In this document: positions 2-5,910 of the stretch, in pieces
Layout: each line of letters opens with the position of its first letter
Position numbering within the stretch: position 1 is the stretch's first letter
DNA from: Sulfuricurvum sp.
GTDB taxonomy: Bacteria > Campylobacterota > Campylobacteria > Campylobacterales > Sulfurimonadaceae
Reading direction: 5' to 3'
DNA length: 64,000 bases
Assembly (NCBI RefSeq): GCF_028713855.1
Contig: NZ_JAQTNN010000012.1
Coordinates: 30,996 to 94,995 of the forward strand
Translations under genes and position numbers: made by a program
Notes under the pieces: generated by a model
What the model saw: the letters and a program-made list of their open reading frames with translations, nothing else
Database searches by the model: none
Told to the model about the DNA's origin: nothing

Positions 2-1408
2 CTTGGGATTTCAACATGGCAAACTTTCGGGGATAACGTACGCAACATTGTGACCGATGTCTTTGATGGACGAGGTTGTATGAGTGTTATCGAAACCTAT
101 CCGCTGATTCTGCAAATGCAGGAATATTTTCTTAAAACTCCCCATCTTGTCGGTATGCTGCCGCGTAGAATATCCACGGGGATTTCGGGCAACAGTGCCA
201 ACGTCACCTCGTTTTTCGCCAATGACCTCTATTTTGCACTGGCTAAAAGAGAGGAAATATTCGGATTTAACGTCTATATGGGAGGAAAAAATACCGAGAT
301 CGCCCGCAGTGCCGATATTTTTTTATTGCCCGATGAAGTTGTCCCCTTTTTCAAAGCATTTATTGAAGCATTCAACACGCATGGCCTGCGCTTTACCCGA
401 ACCCGAACCCGACTATTTCATTTGCTTGAAGAGATCACAATGGAAACATTTGTGGAACATATTGCACATGAATACCAAAAAACTTGGCAACAAGCAGGCA
501 ATCTAGTGTTAGAAAAAGGACTTTTTTCACGATATCAAAAGCTACAAGACGGAAGTTATGCGTTTTGCTACGAGAGCAATTTCGGGCGTATCAGTGCCGA
601 AGAGTTGGTGGCTATTGCGGATTTTGCCGAGACATACTCTGCCGAGGTACGATTAAGTACGGATCACAATCTTTATATTCTCGGACTATCTCAGTCATTC
701 TCTCCTTTTGAACATCTCAAAAAGAGCCAGACTATTGTTGCGTGCGCAGGAAGCCATTATTGCCCTTATTCATTTTGGAATATTAAAGACGACGCACAAT
801 TGCTCCCTTTGGAGAAAATAGCTGAGCATCGTATTCAAATAGGGATTTCAGGATGCGGCAAAGGGTGCGGGAGACACCAGCATTGCGATATCGGGCTCAT
901 CGGGCTGCGTACCAATAATTTCGGCAATACGGACAAAGGCGCCCGCATCTATCTCGGGGCCGAACACTCCGCAGGGATCAGTGTCGGACGAGAACTCTTT
1001 GAGATGGTTCCCTTAGAACATATCCGATCGGTGATTGATCTTATTATCCATGAATATGAACGGAGTGGTTGTGATACGTTTGAATCTTTTTCCGAAAGCA
1101 TTTTAAATCGGTATAGCGTAGAATTTATTGCATTATGGCTCTTGGCAAAATTGGAATGCGGATCAGCAATAGCATTGTATGAGGTGGAAAAACGGGAAAA
1201 TATTGCTGAAGAAGATCAGTTTTTGTTAGAAAAAGAGTTGTTTTTTCAGTATTTTCCCAAAGCGTCTTTTGTGTTGCTGATTGAGGACAATTTGAATGAA
1301 GCGATACGTCAATTGAGTAAAAAACTTTGGAGTGTTGGAGAAAGCGATCAAGAGATCGCTCCACAAATTAAAAAACTGCTTGTCAGTAAAAAATACTGGG
1401 AAGTTTGA
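2..1408 (+). CDS. Nitrite/sulfite reductase (siroheme/[4Fe-4S]) hemoprotein, 5'-partial (frame is open to the window edge)
   Basis: Translation upstream of the listed start stays open (STWQTFGDNVRNIVTD...). Two Cys motifs, ACAGSHYC and SGCGKGCGRHQHCDIGLIG, match nitrite/sulfite reductase siroheme-FeS ligands. Confidence 0.85.
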   Translation, partial: LGISTWQTFGDNVRNIVTDVFDGRGCMSVIETYPLILQMQEYFLKTPHLVGMLPRRISTGISGNSANVTSFFANDLYFALAKREEIFGFNVYMGGKNTEIARSADIFLLPDEVVPFFKAFIEAFNTHGLRFTRTRTRLFHLLEEITMETFVEHIAHEYQKTWQQAGNLVLEKGLFSRYQKLQDGSYAFCYESNFGRISAEELVAIADFAETYSAEVRLSTDHNLYILGLSQSFSPFEHLKKSQTIVACAGSHYCPYSFWNIKDDAQLLPLEKIAEHRIQIGISGCGKGCGRHQHCDIGLIGLRTNNFGNTDKGARIYLGAEHSAGISVGRELFEMVPLEHIRSVIDLIIHEYERSGCDTFESFSESILNRYSVEFIALWLLAKLECGSAIALYEVEKRENIAEEDQFLLEKELFFQYFPKASFVLLIEDNLNEAIRQLSKKLWSVGESDQEIAPQIKKLLVSKKYWEV

Positions 1409-1411
1409 ACT
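1379..1411. repeat. Left copy of imperfect direct repeat bounding the accessory island: CTTGTCAGTA-aaaaata-CTGGGAAGTTTGAACT
   Basis: Read directly; the same 10-bp and 16-bp blocks recur at 4317-4343 separated by 1 bp instead of 7. Confidence 0.8.
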
Positions 1412-1504
1412 ATATCCTATTTCATATAGACATAAATCGGCAATTCCATCCCATTGCTAAGTAATACTGATCTTTTTTGGGGTATTGAAAGATGTTCTGA
1501 GTGT

Positions 1505-1554
1505 TTTACGGAACGAGTAACTTTCGCTATAATCTCCTTACTTTAACAGTAAGG
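1505..1554 (+). promoter_or_regulatory. Putative sigma70 promoter (-10 TATAAT 1528-1533) overlapped by operator-like inverted repeat CCTTACT-TTAAC-AGTAAGG (1536-1554)
   Basis: Sequence motifs; 7-bp perfect inverted repeat immediately after a consensus -10. Confidence 0.45.
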
Positions 1555-1599
1555 CACAAAATTTGTCCATTTTTAAAAAATCTATACTCAATTCCATTA

Positions 1600-1685
1600 A
1601 ACAAGGTGAAAGCCTTGTCAATATGCGCTGTATGGGTTGAGTGAGGATGAGTGGGAATGAGATAGCGATTGTGGAGGGGAACTAA
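1600..1685 (+). pseudogene. Frameshifted remnant of a restriction-modification methylase/endonuclease C-terminus (ALYGLSEDE / EIAIVEGN*)
   Basis: Frame at 1625 reads ALYGLSEDEWE*; frame at 1659 reads EIAIVEGN*. Together they resemble the C-terminal 'LYGLSEDE(I)AIVEG' signature common in type II/IIG RM methylases. Confidence 0.5.
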
Positions 1686-2873
1686 ATGACACCAGATGAC
1701 AAAGAATATTTCTATTATGAAAAATTAGAAGAGGATACACTTAGCGTTAGTCCACAATTTCCACCAGACAAACAATATGTTGATGGAGAAGTAATTGAAA
1801 GACACAGTAGAGGTGTTTCAATGAAATTTGGAGATAGTACAAATCATAAAATGACTAAAAGAGTAGAAAGCAAAGATGGAATTGAAATTCATTTAAAAAC
1901 TACCGATAATGCCAAGCAAGAAATAAAAGCATATTTTTATGAAGATACAAGGAACATAAAAACATTAACTGTTCAAAGATGGATGACAAAAACTGGTAAT
2001 GCTTGTAAAGAATCTATGGTACTTTATGGAGAACAATTAGATTTGTTATTGAAATTTGTACAAGCATTAAAAGGGATACCATTAACTGGCAAGGGAAGAG
2101 TTACAATCCCTTTAAATATTGCTTTAGATAAAGTAAATGAGTTCAAAATAGACGATAAACAGGTAATACAATATCTAAAAGAAAATCCCAATGTAATAAA
2201 AAAAGTTGTTGAAAATGAAGTAACGGAATCAGATGTAATTTCTTTAGGATATAGAAAACAACAACTCGCTAAATTTGAAAATATGTTAGAAGATGATAGT
2301 CTAAAAGAGGCAGATTGGCAGAAATTTTTCGAAGCAAATACGTGGATATTTGGGTATGGATTGTCATATATTTTTCAAACCGAGTTAGATGACAAGAAAA
2401 TTGAACAAGTTGTCAGCGGATATGATTTTAATAACTCAGGTAAAAGAGTAGATGGGTTGCTAAAAACTGCTGGAATGATAAAATCCTTGTGTTTTGTAGA
2501 GCTCAAAACTCATAAAACAGATTTATTAGAAAACAAACCTTATCGAGGTAGTTGTTGGAGTATTTCAAAAGAATTATCAGGTGCAATTGCACAAATTCAA
2601 AATACTGTTTCCCTTAGTATGAATAATTTTTTTGACAAAATTCAATTAAAAGATAGTCATGGTAATTTGACAGGAGAAGAGGTTTTTAACTTTCAACCGA
2701 AATCATTTTTGATTATTGGTAAGCTTGATGAATTCCAAAATGAGCATGGTGTTAATTCGGATAAATATAGATCATTTGAATTATTCCGTAAAAATATTTT
2801 TACTCCCGAAATAATGACCTTTGATGAGCTTTATGAAAGAGCAAAGCATATAGTTAGTCAAGGAAGCAAATAG
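1686..2873 (+). CDS. Shedu-like (SduA) DUF4263 PD-(D/E)xK nuclease-fold anti-phage protein
   Basis: FFEANTWIFGYGL ... KRVDGLLKT ... CFVELKTHKTDLL ... YRGSCWSISKELSGAIAQIQ matches the DUF4263 architecture with a D...E-x-K motif. Confidence 0.8.
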   Translation: MTPDDKEYFYYEKLEEDTLSVSPQFPPDKQYVDGEVIERHSRGVSMKFGDSTNHKMTKRVESKDGIEIHLKTTDNAKQEIKAYFYEDTRNIKTLTVQRWMTKTGNACKESMVLYGEQLDLLLKFVQALKGIPLTGKGRVTIPLNIALDKVNEFKIDDKQVIQYLKENPNVIKKVVENEVTESDVISLGYRKQQLAKFENMLEDDSLKEADWQKFFEANTWIFGYGLSYIFQTELDDKKIEQVVSGYDFNNSGKRVDGLLKTAGMIKSLCFVELKTHKTDLLENKPYRGSCWSISKELSGAIAQIQNTVSLSMNNFFDKIQLKDSHGNLTGEEVFNFQPKSFLIIGKLDEFQNEHGVNSDKYRSFELFRKNIFTPEIMTFDELYERAKHIVSQGSK

Positions 2874-2911
2874 GTGAATACTCTCAATGACAATAGGAGA
2901 TAAAAAAAAGC

Positions 2912-3736
2912 ATGGCAATATCATTATTTAATAATGCGGTTATTGAACAACTATCAAAAATTCTTGCAGATACACAAAACGGATTTACTGGTTCAGAGAT
3001 TGGATCTTTATTGCATGAAAGCAATATACCTGATGTTGAACCTACAATTACAAAATGGCGACGTTTAAATACAGCATTGGTTCATAAACAAGCAAAAGAT
3101 AAGTGTGCTAACAATATTCTCTCTTTTCTCCAAAATGCGTTAAACCCTGCTCGTCATATCAATAGACCTCAATGGTTTAATGATACTAGATATGAAATCA
3201 ATCGTATTTTGAGTTTTGAAGGGTATGAGATTGGTGACAATGGAAAAGTTGTCCAATCAAAAAAAGCAACCACAATAAATGAAGCAACCGCACGTGCACA
3301 ACAACTTAGAACAGACCTTATAGCTCGAAAAGTTCATCATGATGTATTGCTATTTTGTAAAGAAGAACTTCTCGTTGATAACTACTTTCATGCGGTATTT
3401 GAAGCGACAAAAAGTATTGCAGAAAAAATTAGAAATAAAACCGATTTGAATAGTGATGGATCAGAGTTAGTTGATGAAGCATTTGCATTTAAAAATCAAA
3501 TTCCTCATTTAGCTCTCAACTCATTAGTATCTGAAAGTGAGCAGAGCGAGCAAAAAGGATTTATGAATTTACTAAAAGGTGTATTCGGCACATTCCGAAA
3601 CACGACAGCACACGCCCCAAAAATTACATGGAAAATAGCGGAAGAAGATGCTTTGGACATTTTATCAATGATTTCATTGATCCATCGTCGGCTAGACAAA
3701 GCGATAGAAGCTAAAAAAATGTATCAAATAAAGTGA
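2912..3736 (+). CDS. TIGR02391-type (HEPN-superfamily) protein
   Basis: C-terminal FKNQIPHLALNSL...GLMNLLKG-like region and FRNTTAHAP containing R-x4-H (HEPN RNase motif); good RBS (aggag). Confidence 0.7.
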   Translation: MAISLFNNAVIEQLSKILADTQNGFTGSEIGSLLHESNIPDVEPTITKWRRLNTALVHKQAKDKCANNILSFLQNALNPARHINRPQWFNDTRYEINRILSFEGYEIGDNGKVVQSKKATTINEATARAQQLRTDLIARKVHHDVLLFCKEELLVDNYFHAVFEATKSIAEKIRNKTDLNSDGSELVDEAFAFKNQIPHLALNSLVSESEQSEQKGFMNLLKGVFGTFRNTTAHAPKITWKIAEEDALDILSMISLIHRRLDKAIEAKKMYQIK

Positions 3737-3761
3737 GTCAAAATACCGAAGAGGGGAAAGC

Positions 3762-4160
3762 GTGAGCAAACGATTCGATGAATGGAACGAGATTAAAAAG
3801 ACCGCAGAAAGCAACGAAAAAATTGCTAACTTTCGGCAAAAAGAGATTTTTGTGACGAATATCGGTGAGAATGTTGGGTTTGAGCAAAACGGTAAAGGTG
3901 AACAGTTCCTGCGTCCTGTCCTCGTCTATAAGAAATTCAGCTCCCGCCTCTTTTTAGGTATCCCGTTGACCAAGACAGTACGAGAAGGTATTTTCTATCA
4001 CAGTTTTGAGTTTAAAGAGGGGATCAACAGCACCGCGTTATTAAGCCAAATTAGATTATTTGATGCAAAAAGATTGCACTACCGTGTAGGGATGATAAAC
4101 AAAGATGATTTTGAGCTTGTAAAAGGGAAGTTAAAAACATTACTAGAAGTTACCCCTTGA
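3762..4160 (+). CDS. PemK/MazF-like toxin-family protein (GTG start)
   Basis: FRQKEIFVTNIGENVGFEQNGKGEQFLRPVLVYKKF...SQIRLFDAKRL...GMINKDDF matches the PemK-like growth inhibitor family. Confidence 0.75.
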   Translation: MSKRFDEWNEIKKTAESNEKIANFRQKEIFVTNIGENVGFEQNGKGEQFLRPVLVYKKFSSRLFLGIPLTKTVREGIFYHSFEFKEGINSTALLSQIRLFDAKRLHYRVGMINKDDFELVKGKLKTLLEVTP

Positions 4161-4316
4161 AAACAAGGGGAGCGCATAAAGCGATTTATGAAAGTATTAT
4201 AGCACAATTAATGATTAAACAGTATTTACTAGAAGAAGAGGTTATGACAAAAGACAGAGTAGAAGTTCATTATTAAATGCCCCATGCTACCTATCCGAAG
4301 AAGCCTCCCTTGGAGT

Positions 4317-4343
4317 CTTGTCAGTAGCTGGGAAGTTTGAACT
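4317..4343. repeat. Right copy of imperfect direct repeat: CTTGTCAGTA-g-CTGGGAAGTTTGAACT
   Basis: Read directly; matches the 3' end of the reductase gene at 1379-1411. Confidence 0.8.
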
Positions 4344-4352
4344 TCATAGTAC

Positions 4353-4778
4353 TTAAGGATTAAAGTTTTTCAATCCGCCTTGAAGATACGTAACATGTTT
4401 GAACCCTAACTGCATTAATCGCTGTGCCGCGAACACCGATCTCGGCTCCAATGCGCAATAAACAACAAATGTATCCTCTTTGGTGTATTTATCAAGGATT
4501 AATTTTGGATATTTTATTTCCAGAAATCCCCGTGAAATTTTGACTTGACGATCGTAATCAATCGTACTTTTTTCCCACTCATCCGGATCTCTAACATCCA
4601 AAAGTATGATTTTATTTTCTGCCATCAGTGTTTTGAGCTTTTGCGGTTCCATAGGCTCTACCTGCGCTTTTGCTTCTTTGAGCAATGCTTTTGTCTCATC
4701 GGTTAATACCGGTTCATTGGCCCACAAACCAGCTGACATAAAAACCAGTGTAAAGACGACGCTTGCGATCTTTTTCAT
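4353..4778 (-). CDS. Periplasmic rhodanese-like domain protein with signal peptide
   Basis: [20 protein letters not shown] signal; IILLDVRDPDEWE and FVVYCALEPRSVFAAQRLMQLGFKHVTYLQGG rhodanese signature. Active loop carries Cys. RBS AAGGAAG upstream of the internal start. Confidence 0.85.
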   Translation of the reverse strand: MKKIASVVFTLVFMSAGLWANEPVLTDETKALLKEAKAQVEPMEPQKLKTLMAENKIILLDVRDPDEWEKSTIDYDRQVKISRGFLEIKYPKLILDKYTKEDTFVVYCALEPRSVFAAQRLMQLGFKHVTYLQGGLKNFNP

Positions 4779-5311
4779 TTTCACTTCCTTATTAAAGATG
4801 AAACCATAGTAGCTAAATCTGTGGGAATATCGTTTGATGTAGATCATGAAAGAGGTTGGATAGAATCGCATTTGACACCATAGGGTAAAGTGTATAATAG
4901 GGTACTAAATGACACTTTAAATGCTTCCGTCCTCTACATTGATCTATAGTGTTTAAAAATATTCAAAAAACTGATGAATTGCATGGAACATTATGTTATG
5001 ATTTAGTAACAATGTCTTAACTTTTTAAAATATCTTTTCGTACTAAGGAGCATAATGAAAGCAGTGGTTATGGCAGGCGGGTTCGGAACACGGATACAAC
5101 CTCTTACACATTCAATCCCTAAACCAATGTTACCGATCATGAATCGTCCGATGATGGAACACACCATTGTGAGCCTAAGAGATCTGGGAATTACAGAGTT
5201 TATTATCCTTCTGTATTTCAAGCCCGAAGTTATCAAAGACTATTTTAAAGACGGAAGCAAGTGGGGGATTAACATCACTTATGTAGTTCCGGATGATGAT
5301 TACGGAACGGC
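4713..5311. repeat. 599-bp tandem duplication, copy 1
   Basis: Compared by eye with 5312-5910; appears identical throughout, constant offset 599. Confidence 0.92.
4872..4898 (+). promoter_or_regulatory. Sigma70-like promoter TTGACA-N15-TATAAT (copy 1)
   Basis: Consensus hexamers with a short 15-bp spacer. Confidence 0.55.
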
Positions 5312-5408
5312 TTCATTGGCCCACAAACCAGCTGACATAAAAACCAGTGTAAAGACGACGCTTGCGATCTTTTTCATTTTCACTTCCTTATTAAAGATGA
5401 AACCATAG
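5055..5408 (+). pseudogene. Truncated 5' copy of the nucleotidyltransferase gene fused to antisense rhodanese sequence (duplication by-product)
   Basis: First ~86 codons identical to 5654-5911, then tail [14 protein letters not shown]... from the duplicated antisense rhodanese region. Confidence 0.85.
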
Positions 5409-5910
5409 TAGCTAAATCTGTGGGAATATCGTTTGATGTAGATCATGAAAGAGGTTGGATAGAATCGCATTTGACACCATAGGGTAAAGTGTATAATAGG
5501 GTACTAAATGACACTTTAAATGCTTCCGTCCTCTACATTGATCTATAGTGTTTAAAAATATTCAAAAAACTGATGAATTGCATGGAACATTATGTTATGA
5601 TTTAGTAACAATGTCTTAACTTTTTAAAATATCTTTTCGTACTAAGGAGCATAATGAAAGCAGTGGTTATGGCAGGCGGGTTCGGAACACGGATACAACC
5701 TCTTACACATTCAATCCCTAAACCAATGTTACCGATCATGAATCGTCCGATGATGGAACACACCATTGTGAGCCTAAGAGATCTGGGAATTACAGAGTTT
5801 ATTATCCTTCTGTATTTCAAGCCCGAAGTTATCAAAGACTATTTTAAAGACGGAAGCAAGTGGGGGATTAACATCACTTATGTAGTTCCGGATGATGATT
5901 ACGGAACGGC
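5312..5910. repeat. 599-bp tandem duplication, copy 2
   Basis: As above; identical translations of ORFs 5003-5236 and 5602-5835 confirm the duplication. Confidence 0.92.
5471..5497 (+). promoter_or_regulatory. Sigma70-like promoter TTGACA-N15-TATAAT (copy 2, duplicated)
   Basis: Same motif repeated by the 599-bp duplication, upstream of the intact operon. Confidence 0.55.

Follow-up and report, generated by a model that had tools for sequence, protein, structure and literature searches.

We believe that three adjacent genes in a 64,000-nucleotide stretch of Sulfuricurvum sp. DNA (the window) probably form a horizontally acquired defence cassette that arose by accretion and includes a PemK-like unit that an RNA would silence, and that they are not one machine of three parts. 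The genes encode a Shedu nuclease, a TIGR02391/Ymh protein with a HEPN motif and a PemK/MazF-like RNase. As had been predicted from the letters of the sequence, they lie on the same strand, 38 and 25 bp apart; the domains predicted for them and the connection with defence are correct, and their catalytic residues are intact. The features discussed below are the following.

1396-1411, left one of two 16-bp direct repeats (CTGGGAAGTTTGAACT), at the 3' end of a sulfite/nitrite-reductase-like gene
1505-1533, + strand, promoter-like site TTTACG-17-TATAAT, retained from a lost type IIG restriction-modification (R-M) gene
1518-1684, + strand, scar of the deleted type IIG R-M gene, its 5' end (SIFKKSILNSIKQGESL) joined to its 3' end (YGLSEDE..IAIVEGN stop)
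1686-2873, + strand, Shedu nuclease SduA, 395 aa, its ATG directly behind the stop codon of the scar (TAAATG)
2912-3736, + strand, TIGR02391/Ymh HEPN protein, 274 aa, homologous along its length to PD-Lambda-3 B
3762-4160, + strand, PemK/MazF-like RNase, 132 aa, of a Campylobacterota-type orphan family
4150-4195, - strand, candidate small RNA of about 48 nt with two hairpins (covariance model R1, E=0.026; fold z=-3.9; covariation)
4196-4204, - strand, extended -10 (TGCTATAAT) of a convergent promoter, conserved in the PemK family
4328-4343, right one of the two 16-bp direct repeats, at the end of the inserted block

Insertion and assembly of the cassette

The two copies of the 16-bp repeat bracket positions 1412-4327, and we take the block as 1412-4343. 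In three congeners (G021, G015 and G023) the end of the reductase gene is directly followed by the sequence that lies 3' of the right repeat in the window; the site is empty in all three, so the block is an insertion. In the congener G003 (contig 2, near 1,243,300) the first 35 nt 3' of the reductase gene are shared and are followed by a DNA polymerase IV-like gene, a name read from its translated start with no search. Positions 1396-1445 of the window and the same point in G003, which is another species, mark a small insertion hotspot behind the reductase gene.

The 5' part of the scar upstream of the Shedu gene is 79% identical over 104 nt to a gene start in locus L159, and its 3' part is 75% identical over 59 nt to the end of the gene in locus L171, where the frame is intact (988 codons); the type IIG assignment comes from reading the protein and not from a profile search. 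At least five congeners have sequences related to this element ahead of other accessory genes. At five loci from several congeners (L157, L158, L160, L161 and L162) the type IIG promoter and 5' end are kept before different accessory genes, several of these loci keeping the 3' end as well. It looks as if repeated internal deletions of the type IIG gene had left its promoter for the genes behind it. Sites homologous to the promoter-like site at 1505-1533 are present in congeners, and in the window this site probably drives the three-gene operon. No terminator-like site was found between the three genes or anywhere in 1400-4400, and their co-transcription is therefore plausible.

Third-position GC (GC3) is low in the Shedu (0.19) and Ymh (0.22) genes and close to that of the window (0.43) in the PemK-like gene (0.44), which fits a foreign origin of the first two and a local addition of the third. 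The Shedu and Ymh genes, AT-rich and 38 bp apart, may have travelled as a pair. The cassette would thus have been assembled by loss of the R-M gene, retention of its promoter and addition of defence genes behind it: an ordinary yet instructive accretion in a defence hotspot, whose assembly can be traced. Beyond the block, positions 4713-5311 and 5312-5910 form a near-perfect 599-bp tandem duplication that comprises the 5' ends of a rhodanese-like and a nucleotidyltransferase gene and leaves truncated copies of both; it represents a recent duplication or an assembly artefact.

The Shedu and TIGR02391/Ymh proteins

The product of the first gene matches SduA of PADLOC (PDLC00394) over residues 5-393 (E=2.5e-138, a full-length match to one PADLOC subfamily), the SduA_C (DUF4263) domain of Pfam (6.9e-33, 114.5 bits for a cut-off of 27) and SduA of PDB entry 8ti8 (E=5.7e-14). 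Its catalytic residues D256 (2451), E272 (2499) and K274 (2505-2507) do not vary between its relatives, E272 being aligned to the glutamate that is replaced by alanine in PDB chain 8ti9, and the DUF4263 Shedu protein with a D...E-x-K core that had been proposed here is thus confirmed. As in known Shedu proteins, the PD-(D/E)XK core is C-terminal with D, E and K in place, and the N-terminal region measures about 190 residues. Described Shedu systems are single-protein, whereas two further genes stand behind the window's Shedu. In the E. coli Shedu that has been characterised, an N-terminal clamp senses DNA ends. The protein of the window would act as a single-protein nuclease, which invading DNA, such as that of a phage, presumably activates via the N-terminal region and which would then cut this DNA. 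The predicted structure of this protein was poor (mean pLDDT 41) and was set aside, and single-sequence scans with it gave no match in the genome and viral collections.

The second protein matches NCBIfam TIGR02391 (2.6e-37) and Pfam PF09509 (3.2e-42), its best PADLOC match being PD-Lambda-3_B (PDLC03987, E=2.1e-87, residues 2-267). In its helical C-terminal domain it carries the HEPN motif R229-N-T-T-A-H234 (3596-3613), whose R229 and H234 are invariant across 32 relatives, in agreement with the TIGR02391 protein with an R-x4-H motif of the original prediction. The structure model is helical (mean pLDDT 85.7), and a Foldseek search with it returned nothing significant, the best match (E 0.11) being the HEPN-containing Csx1-Crn2. 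The N-terminus weakly resembles ribosomal protein S15, which we attribute to chance.

Outside the phylum we surveyed about 100 Ymh loci, plus 24 near-identical copies in streptococcal prophages; the genome scan took the best 80 of 508 matches, and in all surveyed loci a simple rule, the longest ORF, served to call the genes. Ymh genes stand beside type I R-M subunits (three loci), AbiJ-type genes (one locus and its cluster), HEC-07/HEC-08 (two loci), and, at one locus each, Gabija GajA, Hachiman, a CBASS-type 4TM effector, a Fic-like gene, PDC-S06 and Shedu, as well as other defence families. The closest relatives among the matches listed (60-69% identity) are often lone genes with flanking attC-like sites (TAACAAG...GCGTTA), as recognised by a simple pattern and shuffles with no dedicated program; seven loci hold clear attC-flanked cassettes, and two Campylobacterota relatives (46% identity) have attC-like sites as well. 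Ymh is a promiscuous unit, found as integron cassettes and with many defence neighbours. A protein that works as a single cassette needs no fixed partner, and Ymh would therefore be a HEPN effector of the self-sufficient or plug-in kind; anti-phage activity is already known for integron cassettes. We propose that this predicted RNase moves between defence loci and integron cassettes and probably serves as an abortive-infection effector. The possibility that the inserted block is itself an integron cassette was rejected, there being no attC-like pair at its Ymh gene.

The invariant R-x4-H motif and the R-M and Abi neighbours agree with the available part of the description of the HEPN Ymh family (PF09509) by Anantharaman et al. 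(2013), from which our findings differ in that the window's Ymh adjoins Shedu and in the integron cassettes of close relatives, which go unmentioned in that part. At seven Acinetobacter loci, Ymh lies behind a 1228-residue protein on the same strand, for which PADLOC gave no match in the one locus tested (L037).

Conservation of the gene triplet

Phylum searches, which covered a sample of a larger group, found the window's Shedu in a single genome of 397 (the window's own) and the Ymh protein in four. Among the matches listed, Shedu was next to Ymh in one of the approximately 100 other Ymh loci, on a Cupriavidus plasmid, and PemK was next to Ymh in none of them. Shedu relatives were surveyed at 19 loci on plasmids, on viral contigs and in genomes. 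None of these has a full-length Ymh gene next to Shedu or a PemK gene, and no conserved partner surrounds Shedu; one of the loci holds a weak Ymh-like ORF two genes off. Similarly, 32 PemK loci contained neither Shedu nor Ymh. The original prediction had set the search for conserved Shedu-TIGR02391-PemK triplets as its own check; this search was made, and our surveys disclosed no such triplets, although rare ones may occur outside the sampled genomes.

These results bear on two ways of joining the genes into one system. The first, put forward in the original prediction, is a three-component, multi-effector abortive system or, as a variant, a TIGR02391-PemK toxin/antitoxin pair. While the common strand, the short gaps and the absence of terminator-like sites between the genes are what such an operon would display, no second triplet was met in the Ymh, Shedu or PemK surveys, which leaves the composite system unsupported. 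Nor was a Ymh-PemK pair found, and the PemK-like gene differs in base composition and has a conserved partner candidate of its own, an RNA encoded downstream (see below). We consider both forms of this explanation very improbable.

The second way concerns Shedu and TIGR02391 only, which might form a two-gene abortive system like PD-Lambda-3 with Shedu replacing the A nuclease and PemK as a hitchhiker. For PD-Lambda-3 (Vassallo et al. 2022) a PD-(D/E)XK nuclease is listed; the system acts abortively and serves in the literature as an abortive-infection control. The resemblance is real for component B, to which the window's HEPN protein is homologous over its length, and the low GC of both genes, the 38 bp between them and the second adjacency in Cupriavidus are also consistent with a pair. 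However, component A was not found at the window, where the nuclease is Shedu; this protein yielded no PD-Lambda-3_A match in PADLOC at E<=1, and we rejected its identity with PD-Lambda-3 A on this ground. Moreover, the Cupriavidus locus has the reverse order, with Shedu downstream of Ymh, and its Shedu is only 29% identical to that of the window, while closer Shedu relatives have no adjacent full-length Ymh and the closest Ymh relatives listed are often lone integron cassettes. A two-gene system is therefore unlikely in our opinion, and we favour accretion of separate units. The case is a warning that neighbours in a defence island should not be read as one system from their adjacency.

The PemK-like RNase and its candidate convergent RNA

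The third protein matches PemK_toxin of Pfam (PF02452; 1.1e-7, 32.5 bits for a cut-off of 23.1) and phrog_9567 (3.1e-26). E41, R51 and P68, which we take to be the MazF catalytic residues, are invariant in 29 sequences, and these results substantiate the PemK/MazF-like assignment made from the sequence. Single-sequence scans of the genome and viral collections with this protein gave no match. The family was present in 36 of the 298 Campylobacterota genomes sampled; its relatives on plasmids belong almost all to Campylobacter, Helicobacter and Nitratiruptor, and others are carried by Campylobacter phages. Loci L181 and L203 are identical and correspond to one plasmid, met again as a genome in the phylum-level search. 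Members of the family lie behind, or are fused to, unrelated genes whose names were read from their sequences: a GTPase (sulfate adenylyltransferase subunit 1-like), nucleotide-sugar enzymes, RadC, a type I methylase, a terminase and a conjugation protein. No antitoxin recurs upstream of the PemK relatives, the upstream genes being mutually unrelated and most of them not antitoxins. The earlier observation that no antitoxin is recognisable hence stands for a protein antitoxin and has to be amended for RNA, as a candidate lies directly downstream on the opposite strand.

The DNA behind PemK is conserved between loci with unrelated upstream genes, and its opposite strand carries a sigma70-type promoter followed by two hairpins. 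Of 48 distinct PemK loci, 24 reached a promoter score of 10 or more in the antisense direction and one did so in the sense direction, as compared with 5.7% of dinucleotide shuffles; a perfect TATAAT occurred in 30 antisense and four sense regions, the shuffles giving 7.3 (maximum 15). The -35 of the family is often TTGACA with a spacer of 17 nt. In the window the -35 is degenerate (TACTGT) and no longer recognisable.

The candidate RNA overlaps the PemK stop codon, and hardly any of its structured part falls within the coding region. Hairpin A pairs 4183-4181 with 4175-4173, and hairpin B pairs 4170-4164 with 4159-4153 around a UUUU loop; no terminator-like site was found after hairpin B in the antisense direction. 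Because a MAFFT alignment of 22 elements misaligned the stems and gave no consensus fold, the covariance model R1 was trained on seven well-aligned loci, the window not being among them. In the PemK loci and the window it found fourteen more matches, corresponding to thirteen distinct places as that of the window was listed twice. When 20 distinct sequences were aligned, 97.9% of the cells paired and eight of the ten pairs showed changes on both sides, with a covariation score of 0.488; shuffles scored 0.183+-0.022, and slid structures did not exceed 0.159. These numbers lean upwards because the alignment was fitted to the structure and seven of its 21 rows trained R1. When R1 was run against 200 genomes, each of its eight best matches (E<=0.013) lay next to PemK or a remnant of it.

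Some loci retain the RNA where the toxin is broken. At L187, a second copy (477-526, + strand) beside a RadC-like gene preserves only the first residues of PemK, and yet the RNA and a TTGACA-17-TATAAT promoter are intact; the toxin is frameshifted in L235 and L238, and L241 keeps a C-terminal PemK remnant. Retention of the RNA where the toxin is lost is what one would expect of an antitoxin. No Rfam family corresponds to this element, and paper searches, which covered few subscription journals, returned nothing on a PemK-linked RNA. In the orphan PemK family, the convergent RNA is a candidate new element and a candidate RNA antitoxin. The position of its structured part, with hardly any overlap with the coding region, favours a structural role, and its antisense position allows pairing with the mRNA.

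Such an arrangement partly resembles known toxin-antitoxin types. In type III systems (ToxIN, CptIN, TenpIN) a tandem-repeat RNA array lies upstream of the toxin and on the same strand; the PemK unit shares with them an RNase toxin of the same fold class and a short structured RNA, whereas its RNA forms one unit, encoded behind the toxin gene on the opposite strand. Type I systems of the TxpA/RatA type have a convergent antisense RNA and a small membrane peptide as toxin; here too the RNA overlaps the 3' end of the toxin gene from the other strand, but the toxin is a PemK-type RNase. Finally, the protein of the window belongs to the PemK fold family and has the E, R and P-L-[TS] residues of the type II PemK/MazF toxins, from which the unit differs in having a convergent structured RNA instead of a protein antitoxin.

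We therefore suggest a working scheme in which the PemK-like RNase is a toxin unit placed at the 3' end of unrelated genes and transcribed from whatever lies upstream, while the convergent promoter would produce a short two-hairpin RNA that silences PemK through binding of the toxin, in the manner of type III, or through base-pairing to the 3' end of its mRNA, in the manner of type I. Depletion of a labile RNA first, upon shut-off of host transcription, has been proposed for other RNA-antitoxin systems. If transcription were disturbed, for example by a phage, the labile RNA would similarly decay first and the PemK RNase would be freed. It is quite possible, if short of probable, that the orphan PemK RNases represent a new toxin-antitoxin class, in which a convergent structured RNA with its own conserved promoter neutralises the toxin and the unit hitchhikes behind unrelated operons, defence loci included. 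This would offer a testable answer to the puzzle of widespread MazF/PemK-type RNases without MazE-type antitoxins.

The antisense element could also silence or block transcription, or serve as a stability element, PemK being held in check by convergent transcription alone or being an ordinary regulated RNase. A strong promoter reading into the 3' end of PemK with no terminator-like site would be in keeping with this, and hairpins at a 3' end can merely stabilise an mRNA. There is, besides, a functional antisense RNA, aMEF, at a type II mazEF locus that stimulates mazEF expression and whose promoters are described as poorly conserved (PMC8749433). The predicted RNA behind PemK resembles aMEF in being antisense at a MazF-type toxin locus, but MazE is absent and the promoter is well conserved. 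Since the compensatory changes on eight of the ten hairpin pairs and the retention of RNA and promoter at deleted or frameshifted toxins suggest that the RNA itself is selected, we regard a silencer or stability element as possible but rather doubtful.

A variant of the antitoxin candidate may exist. Loci with a longer element between the PemK stop codon and the antisense -10 mostly have TATAAT without a clear -35. In L190, L192-L196 and L198-L202 (mostly families f2 and f3), about 80-130 nt with several hairpins precede the antisense TATAAT; model R1 gave no match to the downstream elements of these loci, which are probably a second form of the RNA.
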